Source of the DNA: Nocardiopsis suaedae
GTDB taxonomy: Bacteria > Actinomycetota > Actinomycetes > Streptosporangiales > Streptosporangiaceae
DNA: 64,000 nt
NCBI RefSeq assembly: GCF_027706745.1
Contig: NZ_JAQFWP010000003.1
Location: 62,001 to 126,000, forward strand
Direction of reading: 5' to 3'
Shown here: positions 3,940-24,061 of the stretch, in pieces
How positions within the stretch are numbered: the stretch's first letter is position 1
How the letters are laid out: each line of letters starts with the position of its first letter
Position numbers and translations under genes: made by a program
Notes under the pieces: generated by a model
Databases searched by the model: none
The model's input: the letters and a program-made list of their open reading frames with translations, nothing else
What the model was told of the DNA's origin: nothing

Positions 3940-4688
3940 GTACCCCCAACGAGATCGCAGCCTCGGCCCGCCGAACCCGCACCACCATCATCGTCCCGGC
4001 CGCCCTCGTGGTGGTGCTGGCCGTCGTGGCCGCCGTTGCGATCACCACGGCCCTGAACGCGGGCGGCGAGCAGCTGCAGAGCGCCGCCTCCCCCTCGCCC
4101 ACGCGCTCCCGTGCAGAGGGCGAGCCGCTGCGCCCGCCCGCCCCCGGGCACGAGGTCGAGGGCTACCCGGTCAACTTCGAGCACACCCCGGAGGGGGCCG
4201 TGGCCATGACCACGGCCTACGTCAGCCGCAATGCGACCTTGGACCCCGCGGACAAGGCCGAGACCCGATCGGCCTATGCCGTAGAACTGCAGGGGATCGG
4301 GCAGGAGGAACTGGAGCAGCTGGCCGAGCAGTTACAGCTGGGCATCGAGGACGAGCTGGACTACTACGGGTTCGACGTGGATCTGGGCGACCTGCCCCAG
4401 CAGGCCACCTATTCGGCGCTGCCGGTGGCGGTGGTCTATGAGGAGATCGACGCCTCGACCACCGAGGTCGCCGTTCTGACCGAGGTGAACGTCTCCGACG
4501 GCATCGAGGCCGAGTCCATCTTCCTGGAGCCCCTTGAGGTGCGGTGCGTGTGGAGCGATGACGTGCGCGGCGGCGACTGGGTCATCTCCAGCGAGTTCCC
4601 CGAGATCGAGGTGCCGGACAAGGCCGAGCCCGGCACCGAGGAGTTCCAGAGCTCGGAGTGGGCCCCGCTGCAGGGAGGGATGTCCTGA
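3936..4688 (+). CDS. Membrane-anchored hypothetical protein of integrative-element type (DUF8175-like)
   Basis: A 250-residue protein with one N-terminal transmembrane helix (about residues 17-40, TTIIVPAALVVVLAVVAAVA) after a short basic cytoplasmic tail, a Ser/Pro linker, and an acidic extracytoplasmic domain. Proteins of this build accompany conjugation genes in actinobacterial integrative elements. GTG 3936 is chosen because GGAGGG lies 7 nt upstream and the start overlaps the preceding stop. Longer in-frame upstream sequence reads through the decayed gene. It seems intact, but its partners on both sides are broken. The family assignment is from memory and tentative. Confidence 0.6.
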   Translation: MSTPNEIAASARRTRTTIIVPAALVVVLAVVAAVAITTALNAGGEQLQSAASPSPTRSRAEGEPLRPPAPGHEVEGYPVNFEHTPEGAVAMTTAYVSRNATLDPADKAETRSAYAVELQGIGQEELEQLAEQLQLGIEDELDYYGFDVDLGDLPQQATYSALPVAVVYEEIDASTTEVAVLTEVNVSDGIEAESIFLEPLEVRCVWSDDVRGGDWVISSEFPEIEVPDKAEPGTEEFQSSEWAPLQGGMS

Positions 4689-5041
4689 TAATGCGCGGCC
4701 TGGTCGCGCTGATGGGGGAGGACCGCAACGGTCAATGCCAGCAGGGTGTACTTGCCTGCCGGTGGCGGTCGCCATCAACAGTGAATAGCCGGTGGCCAGG
4801 ACTCGTGGCGGTCGCCCTCCCAGGGGCTCCGGGGTGCGTGTGGCTTACGGGTTGCTCCCATATGGAGGGGCGGTCGCGCGGTTCTCTAGACCGGGGAGTG
4901 ACTCCGGATGCTCGGGCGCCGGCCTCCTCCGTGCACCCTGGTGCACCCCCCGCTGAGGGCGTGAATGACGGGACGGAGTCTGCACAACGGGCGGCCGCGG
5001 CGAGGTGGTGCACCCCCGCGTGCACCCTCGGCAGCAGAAAA
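4689..5041. other. Degenerate tail of the mobile-element fragment
   Basis: An ATG at 4691 (MRGLVALMGEDR) directly follows the preceding stop and looks like the beginning of the next operon gene, but protein-like sequence ends after about a dozen codons. The rest has no gene. GTGCACCC-type motifs recur (about 4930, 4940, 5008 and 5020), and the stretch GTGCACNCTCGGCAG near 5019-5035 has a counterpart near 3557-3573. This pattern fits a deleted element next to the tRNA. Confidence 0.4.
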
Positions 5042-15625: not shown

Positions 15626-16552
15626 TTAGTAGGGGCAGGTGGAACGGTAGTCGGAGATGTCCCAGTCGGTCCCCGGAGCCGGGCACAGGAACCGGTCATA
15701 GCGCAGGTCGTCGTCGACGAAGCGCTTCAGCCAGGAGATGCTGTACTTGGCGATGGTGGTGTTGGAGATGTTGGGCGCGAAGTGGTTCGCGTTGTTCAGC
15801 TCCAGGTACGCCTTGTCCAGGCCGCCGGGCATGTTCTCGTAGAACGGGATGGAGTGGGTGCGCACCGACGCGACGGAGTCGTTCTCGGCGCCCACGACCA
15901 GGGTCGGCACCTCCAGGTCGAAGGTCTTCTGGGTGTGCCACCCGGTGAGCGGGATCGCCGCCTGCAGGTCGGGGTTGTCCTCGGCGGCGGCAAGGGTCCC
16001 GCCGCCGCCCATGGAGTGCCCCATGAGGGCCAGGCGGTCGGGGTCGATCCGGTCGGCGACCGAGCTGTCGTCCACGAGGTAGTCCAGGGCGCGTTCGAGC
16101 TGGCGGCCCCGGCTGTTCGGCTGGTCGTAGCGGGTCATGGTGTCGATGGTGAAGACCACGAACCCCTGGGAGGCCAGCCGCGGACCGAGCCAGGAGATCG
16201 TGGACTCGCCGGCCGTGTAGCCGGGCGAGATCGCCACGGCGCCGAACCTGCCCTCGCTGGTGTCGGTCGGGTAGTAGATGGTCCCGCCGCCGAAGCCGGT
16301 GACGCTGAGCGAGGAGACGTCGTCCTCGTCGACGTCGAAGTGGCCGCGCGGGGCCTCGATCGAGTCCTCTGTCGGGTCGGGGCCGCGCTCGTGGGGGTTG
16401 TCCTGTGCGGCGGGTTCGGCCGGGAGCGGAGCGGCGTGCGCCGAGGTGGCGACCGTGCCGCCGCCCAGGGCGAGGGCCGCGGCCGCCAGTAGGGTTCCGG
16501 CCGCGCGCGCCCAGCGCGTGCGGCCCGTGTGCGGGGTGGTGTCGATGGACAC
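15626..16552 (-). CDS. Secreted polyester hydrolase (cutinase / PET-hydrolase family)
   Basis: A 308-residue secreted alpha/beta hydrolase. The signal peptide (basic start, hydrophobic stretch 17-36, cut near AHA-AP) is followed by a mature domain very close in motif order to Thermobifida cutinases: VTGFGGGTIYYP, AISPGYT (Tyr112 oxyanion), GHSMGGGG (nucleophile Ser180), LTGWH (Trp205), GAENDS (Asp225), NNANHFAPN (His257), and two Cys (290, 306) placed for the C-terminal disulfide. These enzymes cleave cutin and synthetic polyesters. GTG 16552 has GGGAG 7 nt upstream. An acidic spacer of about 35 residues after the signal is unusual. Confidence 0.93.
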   Translation of the reverse strand: MSIDTTPHTGRTRWARAAGTLLAAAALALGGGTVATSAHAAPLPAEPAAQDNPHERGPDPTEDSIEAPRGHFDVDEDDVSSLSVTGFGGGTIYYPTDTSEGRFGAVAISPGYTAGESTISWLGPRLASQGFVVFTIDTMTRYDQPNSRGRQLERALDYLVDDSSVADRIDPDRLALMGHSMGGGGTLAAAEDNPDLQAAIPLTGWHTQKTFDLEVPTLVVGAENDSVASVRTHSIPFYENMPGGLDKAYLELNNANHFAPNISNTTIAKYSISWLKRFVDDDLRYDRFLCPAPGTDWDISDYRSTCPY

Positions 16553-16821
16553 GGATCGTCTCCCAATCGTGGGGGGTGCTGGTTGACGATCCCGGCCGCC
16601 CTCAGGGGAGCGCCGTGGGGAGCGTGCTCTCCCGTGAGCGGCCGGGGGAACACGAGTCTGCGTTGAAGCGGCGGTGCGGCACATCCGTTGAATCACCGGC
16701 CTTCGGCGTCCGTGCCGTCAGTGCCCGTCCGTGCCCGTCCGTGCCGCCGATGGGAGACGCCGATCCGCCGGTGCAGGCGGCGCGCCCGGATCGTCGCCGA
16801 GCTCACCCGGATGCTCGCGGG

Positions 16822-19194
16822 CTACCTCGGGCCGGAGGCCCGCGCGGGGCCCACCGCCTGACCCCCCGGCGCGGGCACCAGCCGGATGGTCGCGGCCGTG
16901 TTCTCCTCGACGGCCTCCCGCGAGTAGACGAGCGGGAAGTAGTCGCCCCTGCGCCACAGCGGCAGCAGGTCGTCGTAGTGCTCCGAGGCGGGGTCGGCGG
17001 ACTGGCCGGGCGCGCTCGCGGCGAACGAGCGGTCCCACGCCCCTACGTCGATCACCGCCCGGAAGGAGGCCCCGGCGGCCTGGCCGAAGTCCCCGGGCCG
17101 GTAAGAGGACACGTCGACGGTGTCCCACGCGCCGCCGCGGGGCAGCGGGCCGATGTGCTCCCCGGCGGGGTGCTCGAACAGGGTCCACTGCAGGTCGCCC
17201 CAGCGCCATCGCGAAGGGTCTCCGCCGAGCCGGTAGGAGACCTCCCCGTAGGCGTCGGCGAGTGTGGCGGCGAACAGTCGCTCGCGCTCGCCCGGGTCGA
17301 GCGCCCGCACCTCGTGCACCAGCGTCTCGGTGGTGGTCGGGCCGATGAGCGGGTGGGCCCGGCCGGGGACGCGGGAGGCGTGGACGGCCGGGGCGAGGTG
17401 CCGGGTCAGCCAGGTCTCGAAGAGCGCGGCCCCCGCCGAGTCCTCGGCGGCCGTCCGGTCCCACGCGTGCAGGAGCTCCAGCGCGGCCCGGGTGTCCCCG
17501 GTCCCGGCGTCCGGACCGGGCAGCAGCGGGACCAGCTCGTCGGCGGGCAGGCTGTACCGGTCGTTCTGCAGGGCCATCGCGTCCCCGGTGCCGAAGGAGC
17601 CGTCGGCGGCGAGCACGCCGGTGATGCGCCGGTGCCGGTACGGCGACGGCCACTCGTACCCGACGGGGGCGGGCAGCCGCGGCGCCGGGGTGTACTCGTT
17701 CGCGGCGGCGGTGAACCCCTCGGGCGGGTCGGCCTCCCAGGGCAGCAGCGCCCCCTCGGCCAGGCCCGACCACTCGTAGCGGCCGTCGCCGGGGACGGGG
17801 AGCAGCCCGTCGTGGTCGGGGCGGAGGGGGACCGCCCCGCCGGACACCCGGGCCACGGTCCCCGAGGTGTCGGCGTAGACGAAGGTCAGCGGCGGGCCGC
17901 CCCAGGCCCCGGCGGCTGCGCGGAAGGAGGGCAGGTCCCGCGCGTGCATCAGGCGGAGGGCGCCGAAGTAGGCGGCGGTGCCGGGCTCGCTCCACGTGGT
18001 GCGCACCGCATAGGCGGTGCCCTGGTCCTCGTCCCGGAGGACGACCGGGCCGTGCCGGGTGAAGAGCAGTTCGGTGTCGACGGGCTCGGAGCCCCGCACG
18101 GGGATGCGCTCACGGACGGCGGCCATGCGCTCCCAGCCCCCGGCGTAGCGGTACAGGGCCGGGTCGTCGGGGTGCAGCCGGTAGGTGTACAGGTCCTCTT
18201 GGTCGGCGGACATGTAGGTGAGGCCGAACGCCATCGTCCCGTTGTGCCCCAGGGCCAGCCCCGGCATCGACGGCTCGCCCGCCCCGATCACGTCGGTGCC
18301 CGGTGCCGACAGGTGCGCGAGGTACCGCAGTGACGGGGAGGTGAGGGCCCGGTGCGGGTCGGTGGCCAGGAGCGGGCGCCCGGTCTCGGTGCGCCCCGGG
18401 GCGACGGCCCACGCGTTGCTGCCCTCCGAGGCCCACGGGGTACCGGCGGCCGGGGGCGGCGGCGCGATGGTCAGCCCCTGGACCGCGAGCGCGTAGTCCC
18501 TCAGGACGCCGGAGGGGAGCGCGCAGGGATCGGACCCGTCCGGCACCCGGGGTGTGTGAGAGGGCTGGAGGCGGATGCGCGCCTGGTCGGTCGCGGTGTC
18601 GGCGGCGCAGGCGACCCGCGCGCGCCGCACTTCGCTGAACAGGTTGCCCGTGAGGGCGTTCGTCCTGATCCGCACGACGTCCTCGGGGTCCCACCGCGCG
18701 GGGCGGTAGCCGAGTTCCTGGAACTCATGGGGCAGGTACGCGGGGTTGTCCTCCAGCCAGTCGATGTAGGCGTTGACACCGTCGGTGAAGCGCTCTGCGA
18801 CGCGTTCGGCGCGCGGCCCGTACGCCGCCCACTCCTCCTCCATCGGCCCCCGGTAGAGAAAGAGCCGGGCGGCGCGGTCGCCCTCGGCGTACTCGGGGCC
18901 GAAGGCCTCGGCCATCAGGCCCAGGCCCCTGCGCCGGAACAGGTCGATCTGGAACAGGCGGTCCCGCGCGGCGTTGAGGCCCTGAGCGAAGTACAGGTCG
19001 TCGTCGTTGCGGGCGTAGATGTGCGGAACGCCCCAGTGGTCGACGCGGATCTCCACCGCATCGCCGAGCCCCTCGACCGTGTATTCGGCGGGCTCCGGAC
19101 GCGGTAGCGCACCCGGGTCGGCCGCCGGTGCGAGCACCAGCGCGAACGCGGCCAGCACTGCTGCGGCGCTGCGAAGGCGGCTGGGGCGGAGCAT
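16822..19194 (-). CDS. Secreted penicillin acylase family protein (Ntn hydrolase)
   Basis: A 790-residue precursor with a signal peptide (LRSAAAVLAAFALVLAPAA) when started at ATG 19194; an upstream ATG at 19236 would spoil the signal. The alpha chain carries VDHWGVPHIYA and FAQGLNAARDRLFQIDLFRR. The autocatalytic boundary and nucleophile lie at EGSNAWAVAPGRTETGRPLL, where Ser of GSNAW becomes the N-terminus of the beta chain. The family includes penicillin G acylases and acyl-homoserine lactone acylases; the substrate here is unknown. An inverted-repeat element separates it from the lasso operon upstream. Confidence 0.9.
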   Translation of the reverse strand: MLRPSRLRSAAAVLAAFALVLAPAADPGALPRPEPAEYTVEGLGDAVEIRVDHWGVPHIYARNDDDLYFAQGLNAARDRLFQIDLFRRRGLGLMAEAFGPEYAEGDRAARLFLYRGPMEEEWAAYGPRAERVAERFTDGVNAYIDWLEDNPAYLPHEFQELGYRPARWDPEDVVRIRTNALTGNLFSEVRRARVACAADTATDQARIRLQPSHTPRVPDGSDPCALPSGVLRDYALAVQGLTIAPPPPAAGTPWASEGSNAWAVAPGRTETGRPLLATDPHRALTSPSLRYLAHLSAPGTDVIGAGEPSMPGLALGHNGTMAFGLTYMSADQEDLYTYRLHPDDPALYRYAGGWERMAAVRERIPVRGSEPVDTELLFTRHGPVVLRDEDQGTAYAVRTTWSEPGTAAYFGALRLMHARDLPSFRAAAGAWGGPPLTFVYADTSGTVARVSGGAVPLRPDHDGLLPVPGDGRYEWSGLAEGALLPWEADPPEGFTAAANEYTPAPRLPAPVGYEWPSPYRHRRITGVLAADGSFGTGDAMALQNDRYSLPADELVPLLPGPDAGTGDTRAALELLHAWDRTAAEDSAGAALFETWLTRHLAPAVHASRVPGRAHPLIGPTTTETLVHEVRALDPGERERLFAATLADAYGEVSYRLGGDPSRWRWGDLQWTLFEHPAGEHIGPLPRGGAWDTVDVSSYRPGDFGQAAGASFRAVIDVGAWDRSFAASAPGQSADPASEHYDDLLPLWRRGDYFPLVYSREAVEENTAATIRLVPAPGGQAVGPARASGPR

Positions 19195-19249
19195 CCCGGG
19201 AACCCTATGCCACCGCCATTCCGGGACACAGCGCACGGCGCCGCCCGCT

Positions 19250-19321: not shown

Positions 19322-19726
19322 TCAGACCCGCATCAGCGGCATGTAGGTGCCGGGCGGCGCGGGCTCCCCGACGGGGGCGCCCTCCGCCTCGACCCAGGCG
19401 TGCGCACTGAAGGGCTCGGTCCGCACGCCGGTGCACCAGGTCGGCTGGGCCCCGTGCAGCCGGCACAGGAGCACGGTGGCGAGCGAACGCGGAAGGCACC
19501 CCTCGCCCGCGCAGAGCGCGCTGACCGCGACGACCGTGTCCCGCGCGCGCTGGGCCTCCGCGGCGGTCGCGGGGCGGGCCCGCCGGCGCAACAGGGTCAG
19601 CAGGCTCCGGATGCGCCGGGGCGGCCTCCGCGACAGCAGCAGTGCGGCCAGGACCGCCGCGCGTCCGGCCATCCGCCGCGTCAGCGGGGGCCGCCGCCGC
19701 CCCGGCATCGCCATGGGGATGCTCAC
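19322..19726 (-). CDS. Lasso peptide leader peptidase (B2, transglutaminase-like)
   Basis: A 134-residue cysteine protease that cuts the leader from the lasso precursor. It shows the family pattern with Cys77 in GEGCLPRSLA, then WCTGVRTEPF and His109 in SAHAWVEAEG, ending in PVGE. GTG 19726 overlaps the stop of the B1 gene (GTGA), so B1 and B2 are coupled. B2 is separate from B1 here, as usual in actinobacterial lasso clusters. It is the last gene of the operon. Confidence 0.92.
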   Translation of the reverse strand: MSIPMAMPGRRRPPLTRRMAGRAAVLAALLLSRRPPRRIRSLLTLLRRRARPATAAEAQRARDTVVAVSALCAGEGCLPRSLATVLLCRLHGAQPTWCTGVRTEPFSAHAWVEAEGAPVGEPAPPGTYMPLMRV

Positions 19727-19983
19727 CGCGCCACCAGCCCCGCGCCGTCGAGGGCGGCGATGAGGCCGTCCACGTCCGCCGCCGCACGCTCCCTGCTGAG
19801 GGCGTACCGCTCGGCCAGGCACCGCGCGGTCTCGTCGGCGTCGGCGCCGCCGAGGAGCATGCGGGTGATCTCCGCCCCGCTGCCGTTCAAGTGGAAGTAG
19901 CGGCCGCTGCGTTCGTCGAGCAGCACCATGCCGTCGCCCGCGGGGGTGGTCGTGACCTCGGGCCGTAGTTCCAGTGCGGTCAT
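19723..19983 (-). CDS. Lasso peptide leader-recognition protein (B1, PqqD-like RRE)
   Basis: An 86-residue PqqD-fold protein that binds precursor leaders and presents them to the peptidase and cyclase. It has the pattern GDGMVLLDERSGRYFHLNGSGAEI and a C-terminal helix pair. Its ATG overlaps the cyclase stop (ATGA at 19980-19983), and its stop overlaps the B2 start. The three precursor leaders carry the Y-x2-P-x-L motif that this domain recognises in known systems. Confidence 0.92.
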   Translation of the reverse strand: MTALELRPEVTTTPAGDGMVLLDERSGRYFHLNGSGAEITRMLLGGADADETARCLAERYALSRERAAADVDGLIAALDGAGLVAR

Positions 19984-21830
19984 GTCGCCTCTCCGATCCT
20001 CGTCTGCGGTGGGAAGGGTGGGGAAGCGGCGGCCTGCGGCCTGTGGGCCCGCCGCAGCCAGTTCTCGGCACCGAGGGTGGCCTCGATCGCGGCCAGGCCG
20101 CTGCTCGCGGTATGGGGGCCGGTGATGGCCGCGCGCAGCGCGCGTGAGTCCACCAGGCCGAGCCGTTCGAGGCGCATGTCCTCGGTCAGCGCGAGGAGTG
20201 AGGAGCGGTGCTCTCTCAGCCCGGAGAACGCGTCGGCACTGAATTCGCCCTTGGTCCGGCGCTCCAGCAGCTCCTCGGGGAGCACGCCGCGCATCGCCGC
20301 GGCGAGCAGCGGCTTGTACCGGTAGGGGTCGCACAGGCGGGCGCCGTCGATGCTCAGCACCGCGTCCATGACGGTGTCGTCGAGGTAGGGGGTGGCCAGC
20401 TCGACTCCGGCGCTCCGGTAGATCTGGTCGACGAGGCGCATCGTGCAGCCCGACCCGCGCACGGTCTGCACCTTCACGTGCTGCGCGCGGGTGGGTGCCG
20501 ACGGGGCGGGGGCGGCGGACGCCGCGGCGCGCATGCGTCCGGCGACCGCATCGCGGGCGTCCGGTGTGGCCCACGGAGGGAGCCGGGCGGGAAGGACCCA
20601 GTCGAAGAAGGGCGTCCTCGGTGTCACGGAGGGCGCGTCAAGGGCGTCGGCGGCGCGGCGCAGCGAGCGGGCGTGCCCGCGCCGGTCCGTCAGAGCGCGC
20701 GCGGTGGCCCACAACGGCCACCGCAGTAGGGCCCGGTAGCCCCACGCCCGCTTCATCGCGGTGAAGGGCGCCCGTGCGGCGAGGGCGTGCAGGTGGATGG
20801 AGTTGCCCGCGAACAGCTCATCGCCGCCCTGGCCGTTCATGTGCAGCCGGGCCCCCTGCGCGGCGAGGTCGCGCGCCGTGTGCAGGGTCCGCTCCCGCAC
20901 CCTGATGCAGGACAGCGGCTCGTCCAGCGCGGGCGAGGGCGCGTCGAGGCGGGCGAACCACCGGGGGATCTCCGCCGCGGGGACCACCCGGTGCATGGCC
21001 TCGGGCAGGAGGGCCCGCGCCCGGTCCGCCCACGCGGCGTCGTCGTTGGCGGGGTCGGAGGAGTCCCACCGGTAGGTGACCAGGCGTCCCGCGCTGCGGG
21101 CGGCGAGCAGGGACAGCGACGTGGAGTCCCAGCCGCCCGACAGGTCGCACCCGACGGTGCCGGTGGCGCGCGTGCGGGCCCGGACCGCCTCCTCCAATGC
21201 CTCGGCCACCGCGGGTGCGCCCGCCTCGGGGGAGAGCGCGGGGCGGGGCGCCTCCCACCAGCGGGACAGGCGCAGGGACCCGTCGGTGCCGAGCACGGCC
21301 GCGTGGTCGGTGGGCACCGCGTCCACGCCGCGCAGCGGGGCCGCCTGCTCCAGGCCCTCGCCCGGGCCCGGGACGGCCAGGCGGAGCGCGAGGGCGCCGG
21401 GGTCGACCGGCGCGCCCGGGGCGGCCAGGGCGTCGGCCCGGTCGGCGAGCACCCGCACGCCGCGCACGTCGGCGTGGAAGAGGCGCCGCACCCCGGAGGA
21501 CGCCCCGCGCGCCCACACCCGCCCGTCGACGGCGGCGATGAGGTGGAAGCAGCCGCTGAGCGCGCGGGTGCGCTCGCCGATGCGGTCGAGCCCGCCGGCC
21601 AGGGCGGACTCGAGGACCGCCGCGCCGGCGGTGGAACGTCCGATGAGGGCGAGCCGGGACGGCCCGGCCAGAACGAGTGCGGCCTCGCCGGGGCCCCAGC
21701 TGCCCGCGATCCAGGGGCGGCCGGAGGCGTGCGGGACGACGCGGTCGGCGGCGGCGGTCAGCAGCCGGGCCGCCGGAACGGCGTCGTCGGTGTCGGGGAG
21801 GACGGCGAACCAGGTCGGCGGTGTGTGCAC
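19980..21830 (-). CDS. Lasso peptide cyclase (C, asparagine synthetase-like)
   Basis: A 616-residue ATP-dependent macrolactam synthetase that activates the Asp side chain of the core and joins it to the Gly1 amine. The synthetase domain has the PP-loop SGGWDSTS (231-238) and the later motif NGQGGDELFAGN. The N-terminal glutaminase-like domain lacks the Cys2 nucleophile of asparagine synthetases (the protein starts MHTPPTWF), as in lasso cyclases. It lies 93 nt after the last precursor, separated by a large hairpin. Confidence 0.93.
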   Translation of the reverse strand: MHTPPTWFAVLPDTDDAVPAARLLTAAADRVVPHASGRPWIAGSWGPGEAALVLAGPSRLALIGRSTAGAAVLESALAGGLDRIGERTRALSGCFHLIAAVDGRVWARGASSGVRRLFHADVRGVRVLADRADALAAPGAPVDPGALALRLAVPGPGEGLEQAAPLRGVDAVPTDHAAVLGTDGSLRLSRWWEAPRPALSPEAGAPAVAEALEEAVRARTRATGTVGCDLSGGWDSTSLSLLAARSAGRLVTYRWDSSDPANDDAAWADRARALLPEAMHRVVPAAEIPRWFARLDAPSPALDEPLSCIRVRERTLHTARDLAAQGARLHMNGQGGDELFAGNSIHLHALAARAPFTAMKRAWGYRALLRWPLWATARALTDRRGHARSLRRAADALDAPSVTPRTPFFDWVLPARLPPWATPDARDAVAGRMRAAASAAPAPSAPTRAQHVKVQTVRGSGCTMRLVDQIYRSAGVELATPYLDDTVMDAVLSIDGARLCDPYRYKPLLAAAMRGVLPEELLERRTKGEFSADAFSGLREHRSSLLALTEDMRLERLGLVDSRALRAAITGPHTASSGLAAIEATLGAENWLRRAHRPQAAASPPFPPQTRIGEAT

Positions 21831-21880
21831 GCGTCTCCTCAGCAGCGGCGGTCGGAGCGGGTCCGGGGGAGCGGGGCAGA

Positions 21881-21914
21881 GGCGGCCCAGAGCCCGGCCG
21901 GGCTCTGGGCCGCC
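21881..21914 (-). promoter_or_regulatory. Perfect 34-bp palindrome between precursors and cyclase
   Basis: Arms of 17 bp (21881-21897 and 21898-21914) pair perfectly, with no T-run after them. In RNA this forms a very stable hairpin just after the last precursor gene. It could stabilise the precursor mRNA or attenuate transcription, so that more precursor than enzyme is made. Confidence 0.75.
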
Positions 21915-21923
21915 CGGGGCGGG

Positions 21924-22037
21924 CTAGGGGATGATGCCGTACGCGATGCCGTCCCACACGGGGACGATTCCGAAGCCGAGGGTGAGCTCGAGGAAGTCGC
22001 CGAGGTCGGTGAGGGCGGGTGCGGTGTATTCGCGCAT
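21924..22037 (-). CDS. Lasso peptide precursor A1
   Basis: A 37-residue precursor. The 20-residue leader has Tyr4, Pro7, Leu9, Gly13 and Thr19, the last being the penultimate leader Thr required by lasso enzymes. The predicted core (residues 21-37) is GFGIVPVWDGIAYGIIP, with Gly1 and Asp9 giving a 9-residue ring and an 8-residue loop/tail. No Cys, so class II. The GAAAGGAAAGCCCTG leader provides a ribosome site before ATG 22037. It is last of three tandem precursor genes, nearest the cyclase gene. Confidence 0.92.
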   Translation of the reverse strand: MREYTAPALTDLGDFLELTLGFGIVPVWDGIAYGIIP

Positions 22038-22056
22038 CAGGGCTTTCCTTTCGATG

Positions 22057-22170
22057 TCAGGGGGAGATGCCGAGGGAAGTGCCGTCCCAGATGGAGAGGG
22101 GGCCGGAGCCGAGGGTGGCCTCGTGGAAGCCGCCGAGGTCCGTGAGGACCGGAGCCGTGTATCCGGGCAC
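22057..22170 (-). CDS. Lasso peptide precursor A2
   Basis: A 37-residue precursor starting at GTG 22170 with GGGAGG about 7 nt upstream. The leader keeps Tyr4, Pro7, Leu9, Gly13 and Thr19. The predicted core is GSGPLSIWDGTSLGISP, again Gly1 to Asp9 with Trp8 before the ring Asp and Gly14 in the tail. It is the most diverged of the three and the only one using GTG. It lies 17 nt after A3 and 19 nt before A1. Confidence 0.9.
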   Translation of the reverse strand: MPGYTAPVLTDLGGFHEATLGSGPLSIWDGTSLGISP

Positions 22171-22187
22171 CGGTGCCTCCCTTCTTG

Positions 22188-22301
22188 TCAGGCGAAGACG
22201 CCGATGAGGAAGCTGTCCCAGATGGGGATGGGGCCGCCGCCGAGGGTGAGCCCGCGGAAGTCGCCGAGCTCGGTGAGGGCCGGTTCGGTGTATTCGCGCA
22301 T
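22188..22301 (-). CDS. Lasso peptide precursor A3 (first in operon)
   Basis: A 37-residue precursor from ATG 22301, with GGAAGG about 8 nt upstream. The leader has Tyr4, Pro7, Leu9, Gly13 and Thr19. The predicted core is GGGPIPIWDSFLIGVFA, with Gly1 to Asp9 ring and a hydrophobic tail. It shares Trp8-Asp9 and Gly14 with A1 and A2. As first gene, it should be nearest the promoter, which lies within the 500-nt gap to the divergent P450 gene. Confidence 0.92.
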   Translation of the reverse strand: MREYTEPALTELGDFRGLTLGGGPIPIWDSFLIGVFA

Positions 22302-22801
22302 CTGTGTTTCCTTCCCTGGTCTTCGGGGGTGTGCCACCGCCGGGGAAGGGCGGTCGCGCCTGCCTCCATGCCCTCCGGGCGGGATCGGCGAAACACGCTT
22401 TCCGTGCCGTTTTTCCGAACGAATCGATGCGGAGGAACCGGTTCCGCGCAAGCGGTTCATCCGTCCTTTCGCGGTTGCGTTCCGGCCGAATCCGTCGGGC
22501 ATTCCGGGCGGCCCGGGCGAACCGGTGGCCTGAGGCTCCGACCGGCCGTGTCCGGGACGGGCGCGACTACGAAAGGTGAATGGGCCGATAAGTGGGGACG
22601 GGGGTCCGAACTATCGCATTGGGGCTGTTTGTGCGATCGGCCGGGGGTGTGGGTGCGGGAGTCGGTTTCGACGGGCGTGCACCGGGTGCGCCCTGAGGAA
22701 AGGGGTATTCCCCCCCGCTCCGTATCCTTTTCGGGGACCGGCCGGAACCCCCTCAGATGCGGGCGACGTTTTCCCGGGAGGCGTGCGGGTAGCCGGAGTC
22801 C
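22302..22801. other. 500-nt divergent intergenic region, lasso operon / P450
   Basis: It must hold the promoters of both the lasso operon (minus) and the P450 gene (plus). I searched both strands for another short precursor with a YxxPxL leader or a GxG...WD core and saw none. The open frames that cross it have no ribosome site. No clear -10/-35 pair or palindrome was recognised. Confidence 0.4.
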
Positions 22802-24061
22802 ATGTCCGCTCAGCGCGCGCCCATCCTCGACGAGACCGCGTTCCTTCTGGCGAAGGGATACGCCTGGCTTCCGGACCTGCGCCGGAGGGCCCCGGGGCCG
22901 CTGGCCCGCACACGCCTCTTCGGTCGGCACACCGTGGGGATGTGCGGACCGGAGGCGGTCCGCTTCCTCTACGACGAGGGAAGGGTACGAAGGGGCGGAG
23001 CGGCGCCCGAGCCGATCGTCTCCACGCTCTTCGGCCACGGGTCCGTCCACGGTCTGGACGGAGAACGGCACCGCCTCCGCAAGGAGGTGTTCTCCGCGAC
23101 CGCCCGCCCACCGGATGCGGTGGCGTCCTTGACCGGTTCGGTCGCCTCCGCCTGGGACGAGGCCGCCGCGACGTGGCCCGAGCGGTCCCCCGTTGTGCTG
23201 TTCCACGAGGCGGCCGGCGCCATCGCCGCCGGGGTCGCGCGCTGGGCGGGCGTCCCGCTCTCCTCTGAGGACGAGGACAGGCTCGCCGCCGACCTCGTGG
23301 CCCTGGTCGACGGGTTCGCCACGCTGGGCCCGCGCCACTGGCGGGCGAGGATCGCACGCGCCGAGTGGGAAGGGCGGCTGTCGCGGCTGGTGGACCAGGT
23401 GCGGTCGGGGTCGGCGGGCGTTCCCGAAGGGTCGGTGGTCGACACGGTCGCCCGCCACCGTGAGAACGGCGAAGAGCTGCCCTCACGCGTCGCCGCGGTG
23501 GAGATCCTCAACGTCCTGCGCCCGACCACCGCCGCGTGCTGGCTCGTCGCCTTCGCCGCGCACGCGTTCACCCTCTGGCCGGAGCAGAAGGCACGCGTGC
23601 GGGAAGGGGAGGAGGAGGCGCGGTCCTTCGCCCAGGAGGTGCGGCGCTTCTACCCCTTCGCGCCCTTCGTCGGGGGCGTGGTGCGTGCGGACACCGAATG
23701 GAAGGGCGAGCGCATCCCGGAGGGGGCGCTGGTCCTGCTCGACATCTACGGGCAACTCCACTCGCACGAGCTGTGGAAGGACCCCTACGTCTTCGACCCG
23801 ACGCGCTTCACCGGGCCGCCGATCGCCGACGACGTGTTCATCCCCCAAGGAGGCGGCGATGTCGCCAAGGGGCACCGCTGCCCCGGAGAGGACGTCGTGC
23901 TCTCGGTCCTGACCGCGCTGTGCGCACGCCTCGCCGAGCTGGAGTACACCCTTCCCGCGCAGGATTGGACGATTCCGCTGGGACGCGTTCCCACACGTCC
24001 CCGGGACGGGGCCGTCGTCGCCGTCGCCGGTTCACACGGGGGAACGGGCGCCGGCTCTTGA
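22802..24061 (+). CDS. CYP152-family cytochrome P450, fatty-acid decarboxylase-like (OleT type)
   Basis: A 419-residue P450 of the peroxide-using fatty-acid family. Signs are TLFGHGSVHGLDGERH, NVLRPTTAACW, FAQEVRRFYPFAPF, FIPQGGGD and heme ligand Cys360 in GHRCPGE. Arg240-Pro241 matches the carboxylate-binding Arg-Pro of CYP152 enzymes, and Phe77 and His83 match Phe79 and His85 of OleT, which favours terminal-alkene formation; the hydroxylating P450 BSbeta has Gln at the His position. No redox partner is nearby, consistent with peroxygenase chemistry. It is divergent from the lasso operon, and its 3' end overlaps the convergent dehydrogenase by 30 nt. Confidence 0.88.
   Translation: MSAQRAPILDETAFLLAKGYAWLPDLRRRAPGPLARTRLFGRHTVGMCGPEAVRFLYDEGRVRRGGAAPEPIVSTLFGHGSVHGLDGERHRLRKEVFSATARPPDAVASLTGSVASAWDEAAATWPERSPVVLFHEAAGAIAAGVARWAGVPLSSEDEDRLAADLVALVDGFATLGPRHWRARIARAEWEGRLSRLVDQVRSGSAGVPEGSVVDTVARHRENGEELPSRVAAVEILNVLRPTTAACWLVAFAAHAFTLWPEQKARVREGEEEARSFAQEVRRFYPFAPFVGGVVRADTEWKGERIPEGALVLLDIYGQLHSHELWKDPYVFDPTRFTGPPIADDVFIPQGGGDVAKGHRCPGEDVVLSVLTALCARLAELEYTLPAQDWTIPLGRVPTRPRDGAVVAVAGSHGGTGAGS

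Follow-up and report, generated by a model that had tools for sequence, protein, structure and literature searches.

The las locus and its predicted products

The window (the whole 64-kb stretch of DNA that was analysed) carries three short precursor genes, lasA1, lasA2 and lasA3. They are followed directly downstream, on the same strand, by lasC, lasB1 and lasB2. The positions of all features are collected in Table 1. A sequence-only reading of this DNA had described three 37-residue precursors, each composed of a 20-residue leader and a 17-residue core. The translations of A1, A2 and A3 are exactly those it gave, and the GTG codon with which it had A2 begin is seen at 22170. A GTG start is also found in the A2 orthologue of a second species (G143 hereafter), and the cores of these two A2 peptides differ by one residue.

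Table 1. Positions and properties of the features at and around the las locus
Feature	Position	Strand	Description
lasA1, precursor	22188..22301	-	37 aa, leader 20 MREYTEPALTELGDFRGLTL + core GGGPIPIWDSFLIGVFA; NF033521 22.0 bits
lasA2, precursor	22057..22170	-	GTG start; 37 aa, leader 20 VPGYTAPVLTDLGGFHEATL + core GSGPLSIWDGTSLGISP; NF033521 22.4 bits
lasA3, precursor	21924..22037	-	37 aa, leader 20 MREYTAPALTDLGDFLELTL + core GFGIVPVWDGIAYGIIP; NF033521 26.2 bits
Perfect 17-bp inverted repeat	21881..21914	-	in the gap from lasA3 to lasC; may attenuate or stabilise the precursor section of the transcript
lasC, asparagine-synthetase-like lasso cyclase	19980..21830	-	616 aa, assumed GTG start; PF00733 5.7e-44; SGGWDS at residue 231
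lasB1, PqqD-like leader recognition protein	19723..19983	-	86 aa; NF033530 91.2 bits (cut-off 70); PF05402
lasB2, transglutaminase-like leader protease	19322..19726	-	134 aa, GTG start; NF033537 117.3 bits (cut-off 33); PF13471
CYP152-like P450	22802-24061	divergent	CYP152 model 369.6 bits, below cut-off 600
Penicillin-acylase homologue	16822-19236	same strand as lasB2	after lasB2
PET hydrolase-like family protein	15626-16696		second gene downstream of lasB2; PF12740, 8.1e-118

The three 37-codon genes follow one another in tandem on the minus strand (22301-21924), with intergenic gaps of 17 and 19 nt. They form 131-nt direct repeats; against the reference copy, the other two have identities of 72% and 74%, and the spacing from start to start is 133 and 131 nt. 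Upstream of each gene, a purine-rich stretch resembles, by reading, a ribosome-binding site. The three peptides are identical at 15 of 37 positions. These include the leader residues Tyr4, Pro7, Leu9, Gly13 and Thr19 and the core residues Gly1, Gly3, Trp8, Asp9 and Gly14, both sets having already been listed as common to the three; Thr5, Thr10, Leu12, Phe15 and Leu20 complete the set. An acidic residue is expected at core position 7 to 9, and Asp9 is found in all three cores.

All three precursors score above the cut-off of 19 with the NCBIfam lasso leader model NF033521. When the 64 kb were searched for the leader pattern followed, close to where an open frame ends, by an acidic ring residue, only A1-A3 were returned. 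The same pattern had no match in 60 simulated 64-kb sequences (first-order Markov, with the dinucleotide make-up of the window). This pattern was composed with the precursors already known; the NF033521 result is independent of it.

The Cys in G[EQ]GC and the His in HAWVE are both present in lasB2, as in all six B2 proteins found in relatives. Its NF033537 score was obtained with one additional codon at the front. lasC stays below the cut-off of every NCBIfam cyclase model, the nearest being NF033561 (albusnodin/ikarugamycin cyclase, 226.4 bits for a cut-off of 300). Searches of solved structures returned no chain at 1e-3 with lasC and, with lasB2, a single match to an unrelated ribosomal protein (E 0.71). 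The start of lasB1 overlaps the stop of lasC (ATGA) and the start of lasB2 overlaps the stop of lasB1 (GTGA). A1A2A3-C-B1-B2 is probably one minus-strand transcription unit. A search for sigma-70-like promoters at 21600-22900, where about 0.1 would be expected by chance, found none of this type.

The gene content points to a complete cluster of the split-B type, in the order A1A2A3-C-B1-B2, and we hold the class II lasso reading as a whole with high confidence. The cluster very probably encodes three predicted class II lasso peptides of 17 residues each, with 9-residue rings. The absence of a disulfide separates class II from classes I, III and IV, according to PMC7549694. None of the ten cores of the family described below contains cysteine, as class II requires. 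The earlier proposal that one enzyme set serves three class II precursors with 9-membered rings agrees with the comparative data at the sequence level: the enzymes adjoin the precursors, the order is kept in relatives, and Asp9 is present in 10 of 10 cores.

In the proposed pathway, B1 would bind each 37-residue precursor through the YxxPxL...G motif of the leader. B2 would then remove the leader by cleaving after its last residue, Leu20, which follows the conserved penultimate Thr. Finally, C would use ATP to activate the Asp9 side chain and link it to the N-terminal amine of the core as the tail is threaded. The genes, motifs, enzyme family membership and conservation are observed; precursor binding, cleavage, cyclisation and threading would take place as in the lasso family at large, and export and biological role of the predicted peptides are likewise points that we infer. 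The calculated [M+H]+ values of the predicted lasso peptides are 1727.9155 (A1), 1625.8169 (A2) and 1755.9468 (A3).

At the place of the inverted repeat between lasA3 and lasC, a 12-pair stem is present in four of the four genus members compared, with two pairs changed on both sides; the covariation term of the stem is small (-0.25). Single-sequence folding of the hairpin gave z -1.65, and 17 of 200 shuffled sequences were equally stable. The terminator scan listed no minus-strand terminator at this position. The hairpin may act as an attenuator or as a stabiliser, and its location after lasA3 might raise the level of precursor transcripts above that of enzyme transcripts.

Relatives of the cluster and neighbouring genes

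At 1e-20, the cyclase has matches in 56 of 200 genomes sampled from the bacterial family, its own genome included. The close ones belong to the same genus and are 90% (G143), 87% (G124) and 81% (G102) identical; those of G072 (59%) and G043 (51%) are more distant. A search of six genus genomes at 1e-60 gave matches in five, including the own genome and G008, whose protein is only 37% identical, and none in G073. A class-wide search at the strict threshold of 1e-130 returned the own genome only (1/394). No cyclase relative was confirmed in the 17 stretches of viral contigs.

G143 is a second species with three precursors in the same order. One precursor was found in each of G124, G102, G072 and G043. 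The profile search agrees with these counts and gave a further weak leader match on another contig of G102; the precursor of G124 starts 509 nt from a contig end, and the count there is at least one. G143, G124, G102 and G043 each have C, B1 and B2, in the conserved order A-C-B1-B2. The cluster of G072 is truncated (L116 about 4650-4780): it retains an intact precursor and cyclase but breaks off inside B1, of which 31 residues match, and 11 kb of sequence yielded no B2.

A profile of the ten precursors matched at least 42 of 297 family genomes at E 0.01, the counts of this search being lower bounds (best 25 candidates per genome at most). Among the matches listed, those spanning at least 36 of the 37 positions are the ten source precursors, in six of 297 genomes (E 9.2e-17 or better); the next-best match listed has an E-value of 4.2e-7 and covers positions 1-29 only. 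The scores of the ten precursors from which the profile was built are high by construction, and the gap beneath them is the informative part. A related cyclase is present in all six genomes with full-length matches. In Streptomyces ureilyticus (L034 623-727), a 55% identical cyclase goes with a very different core, GGIRHLSVDFITSAYGW, in which Asp9 is nevertheless present.

Leader residues Tyr4, Pro7, Leu9, Gly13 and Thr19 are invariant in the ten family precursors. Within the cores, invariance is limited to Gly3, Asp9 and Gly14. Nine cores start with Gly and one with Ser; at position 6, eight carry Pro and two carry Ser, and Gly occupies position 10 in nine of ten. Trp8 is no family constant, position 8 being Trp in four cores, Tyr in five and Phe in one. 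The core with Ser1 is that of the A1 orthologue of G143 (L113 6691-6804), for which the G143 cyclase would need to close the ring on Ser1. In streptomonomicin, the ring closes from Ser1 to Asp9.

The P450 and the penicillin-acylase homologue both adjoin the cluster, and in the window, G143, G124 and G102 the acylase gene is found downstream of B2 in the same orientation. Either could in principle belong to the cluster and tailor the lasso peptides. Synteny makes this very improbable, and we set it aside: neither looks like a cluster gene. No P450 match was found in G143 between the precursors and the dehydrogenase, and G102 (L115 3792-4112) retains only two fragments, corresponding to residues 1-40 and 335-413. 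The contig of G124 breaks at the P450 place. The P450 looks like an adjacent gene in decay and not like a part of the cluster. As to the acylase, a search at 1e-50 gave no match in G072 or G043, and homologues about 65% identical occur in G073 and G008, the two genus members without the lasso cluster.

A dedicated ABC transporter is common in lasso clusters and is not essential. None was found among the 19 window proteins submitted to Pfam, which cover about 10.7-33.9 kb with a RidA-like gene near 26.4 kb left out; three of the 19 are the precursors and two have no Pfam match at 1e-5. One MFS protein is encoded at 28.2-29.9 kb.

Characterised lasso peptides and other multi-precursor clusters

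The ring pattern [GSA]xGxx[PS]x[WYF]D occurs in none of the 60 characterised cores contained in 62 rows of PMC12427821. Against these 60 cores, 194 of 300 shuffled versions of A1 scored at least as well as A1 itself in its best alignment, as did 260 of 300 for A2 and 241 of 300 for A3. For the other seven family cores, compared with 33 rows of the same source, 45 to 172 of 200 shuffled versions did so. The sequence-only reading had not recognised the three cores among characterised lasso peptides and had suggested such a comparison; within these rows its statement stands, A1-A3 aligning no better than shuffled sequences. Fragments of the cores had no match in open-access papers, with supplementary tables, subscription papers and lasso catalogues outside the scope of that search. 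Judged by sequence, the core family of the window is apparently uncharacterised.

Several characterised peptides share single features with it. Streptomonomicin is of class II (rows of PMC12427821) and has a split B protein (PMC5067487). Its core, SLGSSPYNDILGYPALIVIYP, has Gly3, Pro6 and Asp9, and its Ser1 is also found in one relative here. However, this core has 21 residues and a different tail (rows of PMC12427821), and at best it aligns with A2 no better than shuffled controls. Sungsanpin and chaxapeptin have cores that begin with GFG and contain Pro6, but they have 15 residues, Asp at position 8 and no aromatic-Asp ring end in the rows of PMC12427821. Position by position, sungsanpin shares five residues with A1; its best alignment score with A3 is not above shuffled controls.

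Caulosegnins I-III of Caulobacter segnis are the closest parallel in arrangement: three precursors lie in one cluster and the same enzymes process all of them (PMC13352647). They are also class II peptides. The caulosegnin cores in the rows of PMC12427821 have Glu at position 8 or 9 and do not resemble the window cores with their Asp9. Their cluster is of the type with an isopeptidase and an unsplit B protein, as in the proteobacterial systems described in PMC5067487. No isopeptidase was recognised beside the window cluster among the proteins scanned (general NCBIfam and Pfam scans).

Tandem precursors also recur within the bacterial family. Two or three leader matches within about 700 nt were found in at least five of the at least 42 matching genomes: three in G000, G143 and G593, two in G581 and G568. 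Two precursors could be read in G581; in G568 leader matches alone were seen. G593 (L161 1223-1960) has three tandem lasso precursors followed by one cyclase and B1, its contig ending before any B2. Unlike those of the window, the G593 cores have Cys and are similar to LP2006 (GRPSWGFEADWTCVMFC, for example), and the cyclase is 40% identical. Several precursors per lasso cluster are an established arrangement and not a new one. The caulosegnins and these recurrences reduce the novelty of the window array. Its less ordinary feature, and the one most worth following, is the almost unchanged middle core set against diverged outer cores in the two array species, a contrast seen on few sites.

Evolution of the three cores

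The window and G143 differ by one nonsynonymous change in the A2 core, 14 in the A1 core and 14.8 in the A3 core. Their cyclases differ by 64 nonsynonymous changes over 1325 sites. Nonsynonymous change in the A1 and A3 cores together (29/76) is higher than in the cyclase (64/1325; p 6e-17), in the leaders of the same two genes (p 0.0013) and in the A2 core (p 1.3e-5). These tests use rounded counts, a post hoc grouping and sites treated as independent, with few sites and two species.

One explanation is that the outer cores diversify under selection and the middle one is fixed, so that the array hedges against changing targets or resistance. We regard it as a tentative reading, less likely than not to hold. 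The nonsynonymous change of the A1 and A3 cores, far above that of cyclase, leaders and A2 core, argues for it. Within these cores, however, the excess of nonsynonymous over synonymous change has only p 0.05, on few sites, and only two species carry the array. The orthology of A1 and A3 is also blurred. At the DNA level, the A1 core of the window is 76% like the A3 core of G143 and 71% like its A1 core, and the A1 and A3 leaders are 92% alike within each species, as compared with 87% and 80% between species. This pattern suggests gene conversion, and it makes the orthology of A1 and A3 less clear than that of A2.

The same counts could arise if only one precursor, A2 being the likeliest, gave a functional lasso peptide, with A1 and A3 as relaxed or unprocessed duplicates. 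The near-constancy of the A2 core beside its diverged neighbours would fit this, and so would the single precursor found in each of the two sister species, G124 and G102. We consider it unlikely. In both array species, the reading frames of A1 and A3 remain open, and the positions of the leader motif are preserved along with Gly3, Asp9 and Gly14. Moreover, Pro6 is shared by A1, A3 and the lone precursors of G124 and G102; A2 has Ser6, which makes the A2 of the array the less typical of the three.

The reading in which three lasso peptides are made from one enzyme set remains the one we prefer. The cluster adds an apparently uncharacterised core family, cysteine-free and hydrophobic (GxGxx[PS]x[aromatic]D with Gly14), whose members can be searched for by exact mass. 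It also supplies ten natural cores, of which eight (the three of the window included) go with cyclases about 80% or more identical to that of the window. Such a set would help to establish how much ring and tail variation a lasso cyclase accepts. Beyond this, we put forward as a speculative idea, a little less probable even than selection on the outer cores, that the array is a diversification device: a single precursor was triplicated, one core stayed constant and the two outer cores changed rapidly, with the enzymes near-unchanged. If this is true, species with the array make one fixed and two evolving lasso peptides from one transcript.
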